This document shows positions 15,564 through 22,080 of a DNA stretch of 26,032 nucleotides, piece after piece (within the stretch, counting starts at the first letter, position 1; every line of letters begins with the position of its first letter). A model generated the notes under the pieces. That model searched no databases. It worked only from the letters and a program-made list of their open reading frames with translations, and had not been told where the DNA came from. Both the position numbers and the translations under genes were made by a program. Source of the DNA: a virus; the IMG/VR virus record IMGVR_UViG_3300042309_001027, positions 1 to 26,032 of that record; one strand, 5' to 3'.

Positions 15564-17372
15564 ATGAGAAAATTAAGTAAACCAGAAATAAAATTTCTAA
15601 CATATTTAGATCAACATTTAGATGATGTTAGTGATAAAAATAAAGCATTTAAATTCCTAAAGGATGATTTAGGTTTAGACTCAAAAGAAGCTGCCCATTT
15701 ATATTCTATTTGGTATTATACTAAAGGTGAGGGGGATTATAGTGAAATAGAATACGATGAAAATACTCTTTTATCTTTTATTAAGAAAATGAGTTCTTTT
15801 AATTCTGATTCTGAAAGATCGGATTACATAGATTATATGTACGATAATGAATACGAAAAATTAGAAAAAATATACGGTGACTGGTTTAATGTAAAATGTG
15901 GTGGATGGAGAAGTACAACACCTTGTATTGTTTGGAATGATGATTCTGTTACGTTAGAATTAGATTCTGATGACTGGGAAAAATATTTTTCGGGTTTAGG
16001 TGAAAATGACTTATGGGTTTATAACAAAGCACATAGTTCATATGGTGATGATTATGATGAAATGGATGATGATGAATTTAATTATCCCTATACCAATGAA
16101 GAAACTATAGAACTTTTAGAAGAGTTAGCAATAATTGCGGGTAAAAATTATTGGCCTGGTAAAGATGGATCTAACCCAAATGAGGAAGGTGTCATCGCAA
16201 AATTTTTAGATAGTATATTACCTACAGAATATTATAACACTATTGTATCTGATTATACTACTGAATTGGGTTATGTAGTTACTAGATCTAGAAATGCTGC
16301 TACAAGAGAGGAATACGATTCGGAAATAAAATATAATATAAAAGACGCTAGTTGTAGTAGTGGTTCTTATTGTATAGAAGTTCCATATGAGGATTTAGTA
16401 GAAATAATTATAGAAAAAAATTTATTAAATTTATCAGAATTAAAAGATGCTGAAATACAACCAAGTGTTTATTTAGAAGATTCTTATTATGAAAAGTGGG
16501 TAGATGAAGAAGGTATTGAGGATGTAGTTACAGAATTTAATAGAACGTTGAGGAGGATAATAGATTCGATAATTGAAGAGGACAATATTGATTTATCAAA
16601 AATTATAGAAAACAGAAGAAAATTTAATGAACTGGTTGAAAAACTAGGATTTAAATTAGTAACCAAAACCACCAACAAAGGAGACTGGTATAGAAGTGAG
16701 GATGGTAAATTAGAATTCTACACTAATGATGTTGATTTAGATTCTAATAAAATTAAATTTACTTATGAAGGTAAGAGTCATCTTGTTCCAATAGAGGATT
16801 TAACTAATTGGGTACACGGAAGTGTGTTAGATTTAAACGAAAGTGTTAGGTTTAATAAAAAGTTATTAAAGGAAAATAAAAATATTATAACTAAAATTTC
16901 TATTTTTGATTTTGATGGTACTCTTATGGATACACCACACCCAGAAGAAGGTAAAAAACAATGGGAAGAATTTACTGGTAAAGAATATCCACATATTGGA
17001 TGGTGGAGTAAACCAGAATCTTTAGATGACGCAATATTTGATATACAACCAATAGAACAAACTGTAGAGGATTATATGTTGGAATTAAAAAATCCTAATA
17101 CTTTAGTTATTATGTTAACTGGTAGACTACCACAACAATCAAAACAGGTAGAAGGACTTTTAAAGTTACATAATATTCAGTTTGATGAGTATCATTACAA
17201 AGGAAATGGTGATACTTTAGGTAGTAAAATTAATACACTAAGGACATTAATATTAAGATACCCTAACGTAGAACAAATAGAAATGTGGGAAGACAGAGAA
17301 CCACACGCAATAGAATTTGAACGATGGGGGGAAGAGAACGGTATAGATTTAATAGTTAATTTGGTTTATTAA
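15564..17372 (+). CDS. large protein with internal tag and C-terminal HAD phosphatase-like domain
   Basis: This 602-residue protein has three parts. Residues about 8-70 (FLTYLDQHLDDVSDKNKAFK, FLKDDLGLDSKEAAHLYSIW) form a helical module shared with 5577-6116 and 20992-22080. Residues 80-420 are acidic, Tyr-rich and unrecognised. The end, 444-602, is a HAD domain: SIFDFDGTLMDTP at 446-458 with the nucleophile Asp, MLTGR at 517-521, Lys555 and WEDR at 575-578. It resembles the HAD domain of 'Swiss Army Knife' RNA repair proteins. Just before it lie DLNESVRFNKKLLKENKN, with two (L/I)-x-E sites (after 426 and 437) and the look of the N-terminal packaging tag. The HAD part may thus be freed by proteolysis. 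It is preceded by an ATATTTATA element. HAD call firm, the rest inferred. Confidence 0.8.
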   Translation: MRKLSKPEIKFLTYLDQHLDDVSDKNKAFKFLKDDLGLDSKEAAHLYSIWYYTKGEGDYSEIEYDENTLLSFIKKMSSFNSDSERSDYIDYMYDNEYEKLEKIYGDWFNVKCGGWRSTTPCIVWNDDSVTLELDSDDWEKYFSGLGENDLWVYNKAHSSYGDDYDEMDDDEFNYPYTNEETIELLEELAIIAGKNYWPGKDGSNPNEEGVIAKFLDSILPTEYYNTIVSDYTTELGYVVTRSRNAATREEYDSEIKYNIKDASCSSGSYCIEVPYEDLVEIIIEKNLLNLSELKDAEIQPSVYLEDSYYEKWVDEEGIEDVVTEFNRTLRRIIDSIIEEDNIDLSKIIENRRKFNELVEKLGFKLVTKTTNKGDWYRSEDGKLEFYTNDVDLDSNKIKFTYEGKSHLVPIEDLTNWVHGSVLDLNESVRFNKKLLKENKNIITKISIFDFDGTLMDTPHPEEGKKQWEEFTGKEYPHIGWWSKPESLDDAIFDIQPIEQTVEDYMLELKNPNTLVIMLTGRLPQQSKQVEGLLKLHNIQFDEYHYKGNGDTLGSKINTLRTLILRYPNVEQIEMWEDREPHAIEFERWGEENGIDLIVNLVY

Positions 17373-18319: not shown

Positions 18320-18580
18320 TTACATTTTTTTAACCCTAACCACTAAATCACCACTACCTTTAATAACTCTATGATATTTTTCTTTTGGTATGAATGTTCT
18401 TTCTGTAAGTGGTTTAGGTAATTCATTGTCAATTTGTATCATCCAATCAGTATTCCCTATACTCTCTACTATCCTATCTTCTTTATCTCTATGCCAAACA
18501 AGTTCAGAGTCATCAACATTATTAGAAAATGTCCTAATAAAAAAACCATTTACCTTATTTTCTTCAAATGGAAAGTTCAT
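18320..18580 (-). CDS. conserved small protein, cupin-like
   Basis: This 86-residue protein contains the blocks SELVWHRDKEDRIVESIGNT, DWMIQIDNELPKPL, TFIPKEKYHRVIKGSGDLVV. I recognise the family from T4-like cyanophages and other marine phages, where E-L-x-W-H-R-D-x-E-D-R and Y-H-R-x-I-K-G are conserved. The strand order and the paired His residues suggest a small cupin-like barrel, though no function is known. It lies 1 nt after the tagged gene at 18582, in the same unit. Confidence 0.75.
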   Translation of the reverse strand: MNFPFEENKVNGFFIRTFSNNVDDSELVWHRDKEDRIVESIGNTDWMIQIDNELPKPLTERTFIPKEKYHRVIKGSGDLVVRVKKM

Positions 18581-18581
18581 T

Positions 18582-18851
18582 TTATTTTCTTAATTCATTC
18601 ATAAAGAAATCAAATACTTGATCCATATTAACCTTTGCTTCAGTTATATGATCATCTGCCCAATCATGACCATTATTTAGAATGTCATTTACCATATCAT
18701 GATCAAATTCGTTTAACATTATATCTAATTGCCTTCTCATTTGTTTTAGGTTACTAAAAAACATGTAGTTTTCACCTCTAGAACTTTCACTAATAGTTTT
18801 TTTTACTATTCTTCTTAAATCTTTTTCTGTTAATTTTACTATATTTTTCAT
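18582..18851 (-). CDS. candidate packaged protein with capsid-targeting-like N-terminus
   Basis: This 89-residue protein starts MKNIVKLTEKDLRRIVKKTI followed by SES, the longer form of the tag (K-L-T-E-x-D-L-x-R-I-V-K-x-x-I-x-E) with a possible cut after Glu22. I have seen this longer form at the N-termini of many proteins of Bacteroidota and marine phages. The rest is helical (FFSNLKQMRRQLDIMLNEFD, VDMVNDIL-like acidic turns, MDQVFDFFMNELRK) and would leave a 67-residue product. It lies 23 nt after the polyprotein gene. Confidence 0.7.
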   Translation of the reverse strand: MKNIVKLTEKDLRRIVKKTISESSRGENYMFFSNLKQMRRQLDIMLNEFDHDMVNDILNNGHDWADDHITEAKVNMDQVFDFFMNELRK

Positions 18852-18874: not shown

Positions 18875-20395
18875 TTACCACCAAGTTCCCCCACCAGATA
18901 AACCTAATTGTTTTGCATATCTCGGTAATCGACAACTCCAATATCCCGCACTACATTTATCATTTTTTTGTGGACAATTATGTCTATCCGCAAATGCTTT
19001 TCTAGCTTTAGGATCTTTTAATTTAACCGCTAAATTACCACCACCAGACTTTGCACCGAATGAAACTTTCTTAACTTTACCATTACACATTACATAAACA
19101 TAAAACTTTTTACTACCACCTCTCTTAGGTTTACTTAGTTCAACTTTCTTACCTTTATACTCCGCCTCATTTAATTGGTTATCCTCAAATGGTATATCTA
19201 ACCACACTTTTTTACCTTCATAGATGTCTTGTTTACCGATATCTGTTTTTATTATTTCAGTATCTTCATATGATAAATCAATTTTACTTTTGTTATGTAA
19301 TTCTCTAACTTCGTTTATTAATTTGAAGAAAGATTCACTACCATATCTATAAACTGTTTCTGTTAATTGTATTTGATTGTCTATATGATATTTTAAACCT
19401 TCACTAATAATAGTTCTGTTTTCAGTAATTAACATTCTATTAATGTTTAATGATTCATTTTTCTTAGATTTATAATTTTTAATTTTAATCGGACTTGGTG
19501 ATTGACCCTTACCTGATTTACCATCCGTCTTTTCTCTTTCTCTTTTACGTCTACATGCAGAATCTTTTTCAGACTGACTCATTCTAGCAGCAACACTTTT
19601 TGCTCTACAAACAGGGTATCCACCTTTATCCGAATCTCCTCTACCACACTCAGGATGTCCACCACCTTCTTTTTTTCTACATATGTTAACCCAAGGTCCT
19701 TGTGGTTGTTTAGATCCTTTACTTTTCTTTTTAGTACCAAACCAAACTGCTAAATCCTCATCCAATCTATTTGCAACTTCTATATCATCAAAATTATAGG
19801 ATTCGTTTCTTTTACCACTACAATAACTACCACTACATCTTTTCTTACCATCTAATCCTGCAATTTTACCTTTACAGACTTGAACTGCATATCCATTGGC
19901 ATATACTGAAGGGTAAACATCATATTTAGATTTTGCTGCACTAACTCCTCTAGCACATAATTTATTTTTTTTCTTTTTACTTTCGTCTAATATTTCATCT
20001 TCACTATCCATATCTAAATGACTTTTAGGCATTATACTCATACCACCTTTATTTAAAAGTTTTTCTAATGCGATTGGTATGGCAGCGGATACTGCACCCA
20101 AACCTAATATACTAACAATTCTTAATAAGTCCATAGATTGTGACTTTAAAAATGATAACTCTTTTGGTGTTACATTTTCCCTATCTGTCACATATCTTTT
20201 TAATATTCTAGCTGCTTCACCAGTTTCTCTACCTTCTCTTTTAGCTGCGCCCATAAAAGAACTCCATTTATCTTTTAGTTTATCAAAGAATTCATTAGTT
20301 TCTTTTGGTTCTTCATCGGAAAAAAGACCTGTGGATTTACCATCAAATCTCATTTCCATTATTATTTTTTTTATACTTTCTCTATTTAATCTCAT
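18875..20395 (-). CDS. apparent head-internal polyprotein: tag plus several small modules
   Basis: This 506-residue protein starts MRLNRESIKKIIMEM (tag, cut after Glu14). Its modules, each flanked by (L/I)-x-E sites, follow in order. Residues about 60-126 (VTPKELSFLKSQSMDLLRIV) are LETM1-like with a hydrophobic helix. Residues 140-195 (LCARGVSAAKSKYDVYPSVY, ANGYAVQVCKGKI) are a basic Cys-containing module. Residues 233-290 (GPWVNICRKKEGGGHPECGR, then YPVCRAKS) are a DUF5872-like Cys/Arg module. A linker at 317-410 has sites after 325, 332, 346, 393 and 410. Residues 413-506 (KKFYVYVMCNGKVKKVSFGA, RKAFADRHNCPQKNDKCSAG) are a basic Cys-rich end. In other large phages I recall these modules as separate proteins. 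Basic modules suit DNA condensation in the head. The start forms an ATGA overlap with the upstream stop. Confidence 0.75.
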   Translation of the reverse strand: MRLNRESIKKIIMEMRFDGKSTGLFSDEEPKETNEFFDKLKDKWSSFMGAAKREGRETGEAARILKRYVTDRENVTPKELSFLKSQSMDLLRIVSILGLGAVSAAIPIALEKLLNKGGMSIMPKSHLDMDSEDEILDESKKKKNKLCARGVSAAKSKYDVYPSVYANGYAVQVCKGKIAGLDGKKRCSGSYCSGKRNESYNFDDIEVANRLDEDLAVWFGTKKKSKGSKQPQGPWVNICRKKEGGGHPECGRGDSDKGGYPVCRAKSVAARMSQSEKDSACRRKREREKTDGKSGKGQSPSPIKIKNYKSKKNESLNINRMLITENRTIISEGLKYHIDNQIQLTETVYRYGSESFFKLINEVRELHNKSKIDLSYEDTEIIKTDIGKQDIYEGKKVWLDIPFEDNQLNEAEYKGKKVELSKPKRGGSKKFYVYVMCNGKVKKVSFGAKSGGGNLAVKLKDPKARKAFADRHNCPQKNDKCSAGYWSCRLPRYAKQLGLSGGGTWW

Positions 20396-20985
20396 ACCAA
20401 TCTTATGTAACTTATTGTTATACCATATTTCTCTTCAAATAACTCATTTAATGTATTTTTAATATTTTCTGTCAAATATATTTCAAAGTCTTGCGAATCA
20501 TACTCTAATTCAGATAATTGATCTTGAACTGTCATTCTCATTTCTATTGACTCACCTTCATCATTAAGAATATAACCATTAACCTCACTTTCCAGAATCT
20601 CAACCTCTAATTCAACTGAAAATTCTTCAATATAAAATTCAACATCTAATATCAAAATATTCATATCTAAATCATATATAGATTCACTAATATTAAATTT
20701 TTTACCCACTAAACTATCTAAATACTCCTCATATACCTTTTTGAAACCACCATTATATTCAAACCATATCGGTAACAGGATACGTAACTCTAAATCACTG
20801 TTTTTTTTAATATCTGCCAAATCATATGATAACCCATCTAATTTAGGTGATATACCCCTTTCTTTTAGTTTATCCCATACCCTATATAGTAAATTTTTAA
20901 GTTCATTATATGACTCCATATCTGATTGATAGTTCTCAGATAAAACCCTTCTAATAATTTTTTTTAAATGTTTTTCCTTTAACAT
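20392..20985 (-). CDS. candidate packaged protein with capsid-targeting-like N-terminus
   Basis: This 197-residue protein starts MLKEKHLKKIIRRVLSEN, a clear tag with a possible cut after Glu17 (L-S-E). The body is acidic and alternates helix with beta-like stretches (DLELRILLPIWFEYNGGFKK, FYIEEFSVELEVEILESEVN), ending in ISYIRLV. No known domain is evident. It is coupled by a 4-nt overlap to the polyprotein gene and lies 6 nt after the coiled-coil gene, so the three are made from one message. Confidence 0.7.
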   Translation of the reverse strand: MLKEKHLKKIIRRVLSENYQSDMESYNELKNLLYRVWDKLKERGISPKLDGLSYDLADIKKNSDLELRILLPIWFEYNGGFKKVYEEYLDSLVGKKFNISESIYDLDMNILILDVEFYIEEFSVELEVEILESEVNGYILNDEGESIEMRMTVQDQLSELEYDSQDFEIYLTENIKNTLNELFEEKYGITISYIRLV

Positions 20986-20991
20986 AATTTT

Positions 20992-22080
20992 TTAATCTGT
21001 CCTGTATATAAAATAATATGTACCATCATAATATTGTTCATTTTCTTGTCCGTCATAGGGACCTAAAGTTTGACCTCTATCCTCATTTTCCGCTAAATAT
21101 TCCTCAAGTCCACTTTCATCAAATGAAAAGTATCGACTAACCGCTTCTGTAAAACTAAAACCTAATTCATTTGTAAAATAATCTACCCCACTATATTCTA
21201 TATTATCATATATTTCTTCTTCTTTTTTATCTATTAACTCTTCTTTGGCGGTTTCATAAAGAGATTCTAAATTACTTTTTTCTGTCTCTAACTGAGATTC
21301 TAAATCACTAATTTCAGTCATTAATTCATCAATTCTTCCCTCTAAATCTTCTATTTTTTTAATATTTTTTTTACGTTTATATTTAATATTATCTGAAATT
21401 AAATCATTCATTTCAGATTCTAAACTTTCTATCTCATCACTAAATTCACTAATTTTTTCTTCTAAGTCCTCAATAACTGATTCTACGTCATCTTTATCGT
21501 AACCAGCTTCACTAATAACATCGTCTTCATCCATTTCATCAACAAAATATTCAGCCTCCTCTCTAGCAAAGTCTCTCACCGCGTATTCATCAATTTCTAT
21601 ATAGTCATCTAATAAATATCTGTCGATATTTTCTAAACCACCTTGATTATCAACAAAATCTGAAAAATAAAGTCTCATAGATTCCTCAACTTCACTTTCA
21701 TCACCAACGGCATAAACTTTTTCGGTAGTTAGATCTTTATATGTAGACATATCAAAATGTGAGTACATCATGTCTTCAATTAAAATGGGTGGTATAACTA
21801 AAAATAAAGACAAAGCCATTATCTTCTCATCATCCACATTTTCAATATTATCTAAGTCTGAATCCTGTAAATTATTAAACCCTTCTTCATCATTGTATTG
21901 ATTATACAGATGTAGAACTTCTATTTTTAAATCCATATCGTCAATGGATAAATCATCACTTAGGAATCTCCAAACGTCCTCAATTGATCCGTCATAATCA
22001 AAAGAATTATTAATTGCGTTTAATAATTTTCTATGTATATTATTAATTTTACCTTCATTTAATATATTTACTATTTTCAT
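20992..22080 (-). CDS. acidic coiled-coil protein with shared N-terminal module
   Basis: This 362-residue, strongly acidic protein starts MKIVNILNEGKINNIHRKLL; L-N-E at 7-9 could be a cleavage site. Residues about 15-78 (DVWRFLSDDLSIDDMDLKIE, VLHLYNQYNDEEG) match the module of 5577-6116 and the 602-residue protein. A long coiled coil spans about 200-285 (IEDLEEKISEFSDEIESLES, IEDLEGRIDELMTEISDLES). The end has NEDRGQTLGPYDGQENEQYY. Its size, charge and coiled coil recall scaffolding or prohead-core proteins, but that is inference. It heads the tagged operon and follows two overlapping ATATTTATA elements. Confidence 0.7.
   Translation of the reverse strand: MKIVNILNEGKINNIHRKLLNAINNSFDYDGSIEDVWRFLSDDLSIDDMDLKIEVLHLYNQYNDEEGFNNLQDSDLDNIENVDDEKIMALSLFLVIPPILIEDMMYSHFDMSTYKDLTTEKVYAVGDESEVEESMRLYFSDFVDNQGGLENIDRYLLDDYIEIDEYAVRDFAREEAEYFVDEMDEDDVISEAGYDKDDVESVIEDLEEKISEFSDEIESLESEMNDLISDNIKYKRKKNIKKIEDLEGRIDELMTEISDLESQLETEKSNLESLYETAKEELIDKKEEEIYDNIEYSGVDYFTNELGFSFTEAVSRYFSFDESGLEEYLAENEDRGQTLGPYDGQENEQYYDGTYYFIYRTD

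Follow-up and report, generated by a model that had tools for sequence, protein, structure and literature searches.

The 26,032-base virus record analysed here, referred to as the window, carries on its minus strand a complete ORF of 506 codons (P0001), running from 20395 to 18875. The question raised by this locus is whether its product acts as a single chain or is a precursor from which the phage obtains several proteins. A first-pass annotation had placed a 506-residue protein at this position, which was borne out by the ORF and its translation, and had proposed that it is cut at prohead-protease sites of the (L/I)-x-E type lying between its modules.

Module architecture of the 506-residue protein

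The phage is akin to aquatic Flavobacterium phages, and relatives of the protein are encoded on IMG/VR contigs as well as by marine phages in culture. Full-length orthologues were encoded on 17 IMG/VR contigs and comprised nine distinct sequences, the window counted, which could be aligned end to end. The exception was L014 (415 aa), from which the helical module is cleanly missing and in which the rest of the architecture is present. Based on the alignment, the module borders were set at residues 38-127 (helical), 144-187 (m1), 215-291 (m2), 334-397 (m3) and 411-500 (m4). The helical module, the two basic Cys-containing modules and the basic Cys-containing end had all been listed in the first-pass annotation, which overlooked the acidic m3.

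Table 1. Positions in the window of the 506-residue protein, its modules and motifs, and the neighbouring genes
Feature	Position	Strand	Remarks
Predicted head-internal polyprotein ORF P0001, 506 aa	18875..20395	(-)	ORF and translation; pI 9.5
Tag, residues 1-14 (MRLNRESIKKIIME), CTS-like	20354..20395	(-)	helix 5-14 in model
Helical module, residues 31-120 (folded)	20036..20305	(-)	pLDDT about 90
Joint 1, L-D-E138 / SKKKK	19982..19990	(-)	[LI]xE in 9/9 orthologues, flanks diverge
m1, residues 144-187, basic, Cys-containing	19835..19966	(-)	phrog_27331, PHROG match 6e-12
Joint 2, L-D-E213 / DLAVWFG	19757..19765	(-)	[LI]xE in 9/9 orthologues
m2, residues 215-291, basic, Cys-containing	19523..19753	(-)	phrog_23735
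Joint 3a, I-T-E325	19421..19429	(-)	[LI]xE in 9/9 orthologues
Joint 3b, I-S-E332 / GLKYH	19400..19408	(-)	[LI]xE in 9/9 orthologues
m3, residues 334-397, acidic	19205..19396	(-)	folded, pLDDT blocks 78-94
Motif L-T-E346, within m3	19358..19366	(-)	9/9 orthologues; inside modelled m3
Motif I-N-E362, within m3	19310..19318	(-)	mid-helix (354-368) in model
Motif I-Y-E393, within m3	19217..19225	(-)	predicted beta-hairpin 389-398
Joint 4, L-N-E410 / AEYKGK	19166..19174	(-)	[LI]xE in 9/9 orthologues
m4, residues 411-506, basic, with Cys and Trp	18878..19165	(-)	phrog_7595, PHROG 1e-13
89-aa tagged protein (MKNIVKLTEKDLRRIVKKTISE/...)	18582..18851	(-)	domain fused to m1 elsewhere: L278, L277, L290, L197
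86-aa protein	18320..18580	(-)	domain is first bead of other strings: L297, L299, L301, L405-L412
Tagged protein (MLKEKHLKKIIRRVLSE/N)	20392..20985	(-)	tag at N-terminus
Protein with short tag-like start (MKIVNILNE/G)	20992..22080	(-)	fails stricter tag rule

The sequence matches to the modules were to PHROG families 27331 (m1), 23735 (m2) and 7595 (m4) and, through a distant m1-m2 relative, to the Pfam family DUF5872. All of these are uncharacterised families, and neither a function nor the joint is described for them in the sources searched. The full-length chain was modelled first, and a sub-model was then based on a deeper alignment. In the first model, m1 and most of m2 were disordered; the deeper alignment raised m2 to moderate confidence and left m1 at low confidence in both.

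The helical module was also found as a stand-alone gene of 139 aa in a 634-kb uncultured phage (L377:2944-3360), where no tag is evident, and within other architectures (L405-L412). It had been described as 'LETM1-like', a label for which the searches gave no support: no LETM1 similarity was found in Pfam, NCBIfam or PDB sequences, and the fold search gave no clear match, which is not proof of absence. A pattern scan of one genome per species, covering 84,980 bacterial and archaeal species, returned no relatives of the module. When the module folds were compared with the PDB, none gave a match with E < 0.001. For the helical module, matches to globin-like bundles were middling (Z up to 5.7) and were taken to reflect a common helical arrangement. 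Matches in a viral structure library were to unnamed or uncharacterised phage proteins and to one annotated as ChaB. Judging from its hydrophobic helix alone, the module could act at the membrane during entry, and from charge alone the basic modules could condense DNA.

Among the other genes of the window, the ORF at 15564-17372 on the plus strand encodes 602 aa with a C-terminal HAD_SAK_1 domain of the RNA repair type (Pfam E 6e-11).

The N-terminal tag

The protein starts with a basic, amphipathic stretch (MRLNRESIKKIIME|MRF), and the first (L/I)xE motif is IME14, at the end of the predicted helix. This agrees with the tag called in the first-pass annotation. In three orthologues (L006, L007 and L010) the tag ends in FxE instead. 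At the sequence level, this start matches the short amphipathic, basic propeptide ending in L/I-x-E of T4-type internal proteins with a capsid targeting sequence (CTS).

Since a finder based on a strict pattern undercounts such tags, they were counted by a rule on charge and hydrophobicity, with internal Met residues as the control. Tag-like N-termini made up 19.7% of the genes of G003, 13.1% of those of G001 and 12.8% of those in the window, compared to 0.5-1.6% at internal Met. For G003 and G001, these frequencies suggest a very large set of putative head-internal cargo proteins.

Two further observations concern the region of the tag. The tags of G003 (L090-L098) and G001 (L099-L112) that end in (L/I)xE fall into several classes, namely RLTESDLxRIVxRVIxE, KNLIKRILKE, LQEEIxRIRxMMGxxxE and IIITExQYKRLLxE. 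Residues 15-31 (MRFDGKSTGLFSDEEPK; window 20303-20353) are conserved in most orthologues, including L014, which has no helical module, and are predicted to be disordered despite this conservation.

Candidate cleavage sites along the chain

Nine [LI]xE motifs are present in the protein, ending at E14, E138, E213, E325, E332, E346, E362, E393 and E410, against a mean of 4.4 in the shuffled sequence (P = 0.02). Six of them fall among the 141 residues that belong to no module, where 1.2 were expected (P = 0.001), and under a stricter shuffle, in which modules and linkers were treated separately, the five linker sites other than the tag gave P = 0.03. The motif is loose, and a count weakly above chance in one protein is no more than suggestive; the case is therefore carried by the comparison with relatives.

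In all five joint motifs (joints 1 to 4), P3 remained L or I and P1 remained E across the orthologues, with P2 varying. At E138, the motif was found as LDE, INE, LTE, LSE or IIE, and the surrounding linker varied in both residues and length. In the proteins L405-L412, [LI]xE/SK closes the helical module, as at joint 1, and a different module follows. At E213, the orthologues have RLDE/DLAVW or, after another linker, IHE/DLAVW or IYE/DLSVW, and distant m1-m2 proteins likewise have LxE at the m1-m2 boundary. Joint 3a together with M323 (MLITENRTIISE) looks like a former gene start and tag that were retained. M323 is conserved in the orthologues, and stand-alone m3-m4 genes open with comparable tags, for example MIIKENIQLTE/GLEYH.

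The position of the motifs relative to the folded parts was then read from the models. E138 lies within a stretch of pLDDT < 50 and E213 closes another, and E410 comes immediately after residues 404-409, also with pLDDT < 50. E325 and E332 are at the edge of m3, with good pLDDT in the full model, and residues 292-325 fall below 50 in the sub-model. The expectation that the sites occupy disordered linkers thus holds for E138, nearly holds for E213 and E410, and meets disagreeing models at E325/E332; the low model confidence of m1 makes the status of 'linker' around that module uncertain.

The remaining three motifs are inside m3. Two of them, E346 and E362, had been missed by the earlier reader, and the third, E393, had been counted among the sites between modules. 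E393 was rejected as a joint on its location in the m3 beta-hairpin, its presence in 8/9 close orthologues and its variation in the wider family, and it is probably not a cleavage site; from its place in the modelled helix, E362 is probably not one either. In phage Melnitz, m3 seems to begin at an LIE equivalent to E346. The claim that the sites fall between and not inside the modules was therefore only partly right: it stands for E138, E213, E325/E332 and E410 and fails for E393. In line with processing of a polyprotein by a prohead protease, motif-matching sites separate several modules, with three further motifs inside m3.

Module junctions in the wider family

Profile searches of all fetched loci gave 387 proteins with at least one of the modules, which formed 200 clusters at 80% identity. 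By architecture, m1 alone accounted for 58 clusters, m2 alone for 42, m3-m4 for 69, m1-m2 for nine and m2-m3-m4 for six, and reordered forms (m2-m1 and m3-m1-m4) were also present. Comparison with phages that encode the modules separately, as had been suggested in the first pass, thus found them standing alone, fused and reordered at the joints. In one locus (L320:1696 onward), m3 and m4 are separated at a joint of the E410 type by the insertion of m1 and another, Trp-rich module.

Junctions were counted as distinct when they differed from the others in at least five of 16 residues. An [LIVM]xE directly preceded the module in 48/52 distinct junctions of m1, 47/54 of m2, 28/44 of m3 and 61/63 of m4, against a background of 2.9% per position in the same proteins; P2 was variable and the upstream positions were diverse. 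The junctions share descent, and the tiny binomial P values therefore serve as effect sizes. Where a module came first in its own gene, the tag ended in [LI]xE in 16/17 cases for m2, 10/13 for m3 and 7/10 for m1. Seven distinct fused proteins hold an entire internal tag including its Met, for example L188 (KPKNES-MKKTIKLTESELINLVRKVLTE).

Such complete internal tags are what recent fusions predict, and they would fit a chain that is packaged and ejected whole, its (L/I)xE joints being scars of fused tagged genes; the whole transfer of multi-domain proteins is known, with plasmid examples (PMC5512222). Scars should decay, yet P3 and P1 persist while P2 and the neighbouring residues change, in the orthologues as well as in the family, and the joint is mostly missing where the S77 protease was undetected (see below). 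We therefore consider an uncut mosaic unlikely.

The motif could also cap the module fold structurally, with no relation to a protease. Before m2 and m4, the glutamate hardly varies and E at P1 may be partly structural, and E332 begins a predicted helix. However, the same pattern stands ahead of four modules that are mutually unrelated, so that a shared fold does not explain it, and modules without the motif exist (MAKYQGRTV, MATYKGKSV, MAKLCARGK). The cap reading has little probability.

The protease and a natural control

The Pfam family Peptidase_S77 was detected in 7/11 records, including all of at least 115 kb; the four without it are fragments of 52-71 kb. It is absent from the 26-kb fragment of the window and present in G001 and G003, both of which encode orthologues of the 506-residue protein. 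The S77 protease of the relatives matched the structure of T4 gp21 (5JBL, E 9e-19), and the long relatives encode capsid proteins of the T4 gp23 type. The N-terminal propeptide-like region of the capsid protein ends in LNE in G003, VIE in G006 and VSE in immuto, at positions that align and precede the conserved part. A weak 24-residue match linking m3 with the G003 prohead protease (159214-159903, E 0.002) was judged to be due to chance.

Phages that share a module and differ in the protease served as a natural control. In the S77-bearing phages C48C1, HTVC008M, immuto and Melnitz, [LIM]xE preceded m4 in 4/4, compared to 1/9 distinct records with no detected S77 (Fisher P = 0.007, from small numbers of related phages with relatedness not removed). 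In the cultured Flavobacterium phage immuto, an m1-m2 protein (111140-111610 of its record) has LQE before DETLHKWF, and an m3-m4 protein (101226-101783) has LDE before GEYRGKDV. Phages with m1 or m4 in which S77 was undetected were Kolga, Aegir, CRP-2, CRP-3, CRP-6, CRP-901, CRP-902, HTVC023P, HTVC106P, P-SCSP2 and 023Pt_psg01, with the limits that the profile search may overlook divergent proteases and that one search batch held no positive record, the same model being positive in other batches. In these phages, the gene mostly starts at the module and the joint is lacking (MAKYQGRTVKLNKP, MATYKGKSVSLNKP, MTKLCARGK, MAKLCARGK); in Kolga, Aegir, CRP-901 and CRP-902, the gene start is the start of m4, at the position of joint 4. 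Such genes begin roughly at the residue that a cut at the joint would expose as mature N-terminus.

The exception was Roseobacter phage CRP-6, which has LEE near m4. In this phage (L379:1477-2166), one fusion protein combines m4 with an XkdF-type head maturation protease (Peptidase_S78_2, Pfam E 7e-18). In the T7-like Prochlorococcus phage P-SCSP2 (Autographiviridae), the coding region of a 56-aa m1 protein (L387:898-1068) and the end of the capsid scaffold gene overlap. These two arrangements, together with the tag, point to a location in the head.

Proposed processing and its products

Taken together, the sequence comparisons make it likely that the protein is a head-targeted precursor of five independently evolving modules that is cut in the prohead into about five internal proteins. 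The central proposal of the first-pass annotation, that prohead-protease sites allow one gene to yield several small proteins for the inside of the head, is in this sense well supported by comparison, without site 393.

The tag helix (residues 1-14), like the capsid targeting sequence of T4, would guide the precursor to the core of the prohead. Once the shell has assembled, the gp21-type (S77) protease of the phage would remove the tag after E14 and then cut after (L/I)-x-E at E138, E213, E325 and/or E332, and E410. The predicted products are an acidic helical fragment 15-138 (13.9 kDa, pI 5.2), the basic Cys-containing fragments 139-213 (8.2 kDa, pI 9.5) and 214-325 (12.4 kDa, pI 10.1), an acidic fragment 333-410 (9.3 kDa, pI 4.8) and the basic Cys-containing fragment 411-506 (10.6 kDa, pI 10.1). 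Since they derive from a single chain, they would be present in equal numbers; they would remain in the head and probably enter the host along with the DNA. The modules, the joint motif with its conservation, the recombination and the protease and capsid genes of the long relatives are seen in the sequences, whereas cleavage itself, the stay of the products in the head, their ejection and what each of them does are inferred. The basic modules may bind DNA.

A chain that is cut in the same way could have its pieces mostly degraded or expelled, with no later function, as a core or scaffold-like substrate; in T4, most fragments of the multiply cut core proteins are lost from the head (PMC9026906). 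Against this, the modules are strongly conserved, three of them are basic (fragment pI 9.5-10.1), and even where no S77 was detected they exist as short proteins encoded by separate genes, which suggests an individual function for each module. Loss of the pieces is accordingly a doubtful reading, with perhaps a slim chance of being correct. Separate products made from internal translation starts (e.g. M323) without proteolysis are very improbable: Met is indeed retained at former gene starts, but here only at the m3-m4 junction, the other modules have no starting Met, and the conserved P3 and P1 before m1, m2 and m4 would be left unexplained.

In the preferred reading, of a precursor cut into retained products, joints and tags share the same cut site, so that fusing or splitting genes leaves nearly the same products. 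This near neutrality can account for modules that occur in relatives as separate genes, in other strings and in other orders. We lean slightly towards the broader view that phages with T4-type heads carry a combinatorial cargo of tagged genes and polyproteins, with exchangeable modules and one protease joint, in which fusion, fission and shuffling are nearly neutral and many cargoes are obtained from few genes in a fixed ratio.

Comparison with known systems

A close likeness is to the internal proteins IPI-III and Alt of T4, whose CTS is cut by gp21 (MEROPS S77) and which, like the 506-residue protein, have a short N-terminal helix ending in L/I-x-E. Alt is also trimmed at the C-terminus. The likeness extends to the S77 protease and the gp23-type capsid protein of the relatives, and to the small head-internal cargo to be expected. 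In T4, there is one protein per CTS, whereas here one tag is followed by five modules with a joint before each. We know of no T4 protein from which more than one retained cargo protein is made.

In T4, targeting sequences of 10-19 residues are removed by gp21, whose cuts follow L/I-X-E; an Asp at the site prevents processing and leaves targeting intact. Several cuts are made in each of gp22, gp67 and a third core protein, and most of the fragments are expelled (PMC9026906). The core proteins gp22, gp67 and gp68 resemble the predicted precursor as single chains with several gp21 cuts, but their scaffold pieces mostly leave the head and they are not mosaics of modules found as separate genes. 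The head and ejection proteins of phiKZ and SPN3US share the large myovirus head and multiple cuts per substrate, and differ in their S80 protease, which uses another motif ending in E instead of the (L/I)xE of S77. The identified cuts in SPN3US, apart from the protease's own, yield N-terminal propeptides (PMC10052503). Retained products of the present protein would thus depart from both the T4 core proteins and SPN3US.

The polyvalent proteins of phages and conjugative elements are also multi-domain, being chains of known enzymatic or nucleic-acid domains. They are believed to accompany the DNA into the host, and their authors likened them to polyproteins (Iyer et al. 2017; PMC5512222). Their proposed processing is by embedded metallopeptidase or assemblin-like domains, whereas the present protein has gp21-type joints and other modules. 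Pfam and PHROGs searches found no known enzymatic or peptidase domain in it, and it is therefore not a polyvalent protein in that sense.

In the openly licensed literature, which leaves most subscription journals outside its scope, no paper on prohead-protease polyproteins of this kind was found. The prohead protease is known mainly for trimming tags and clearing the scaffold, and the polyprotein strategy is otherwise best known from RNA viruses. If the reading is correct, the prohead protease also splits polyproteins into packaged cargo, and many small 'hypothetical' proteins of marine phages are head-internal cargo. Tag and joint would then provide a simple sequence rule for finding such cargo, and gene fusion and fission in these phages would become predictable.
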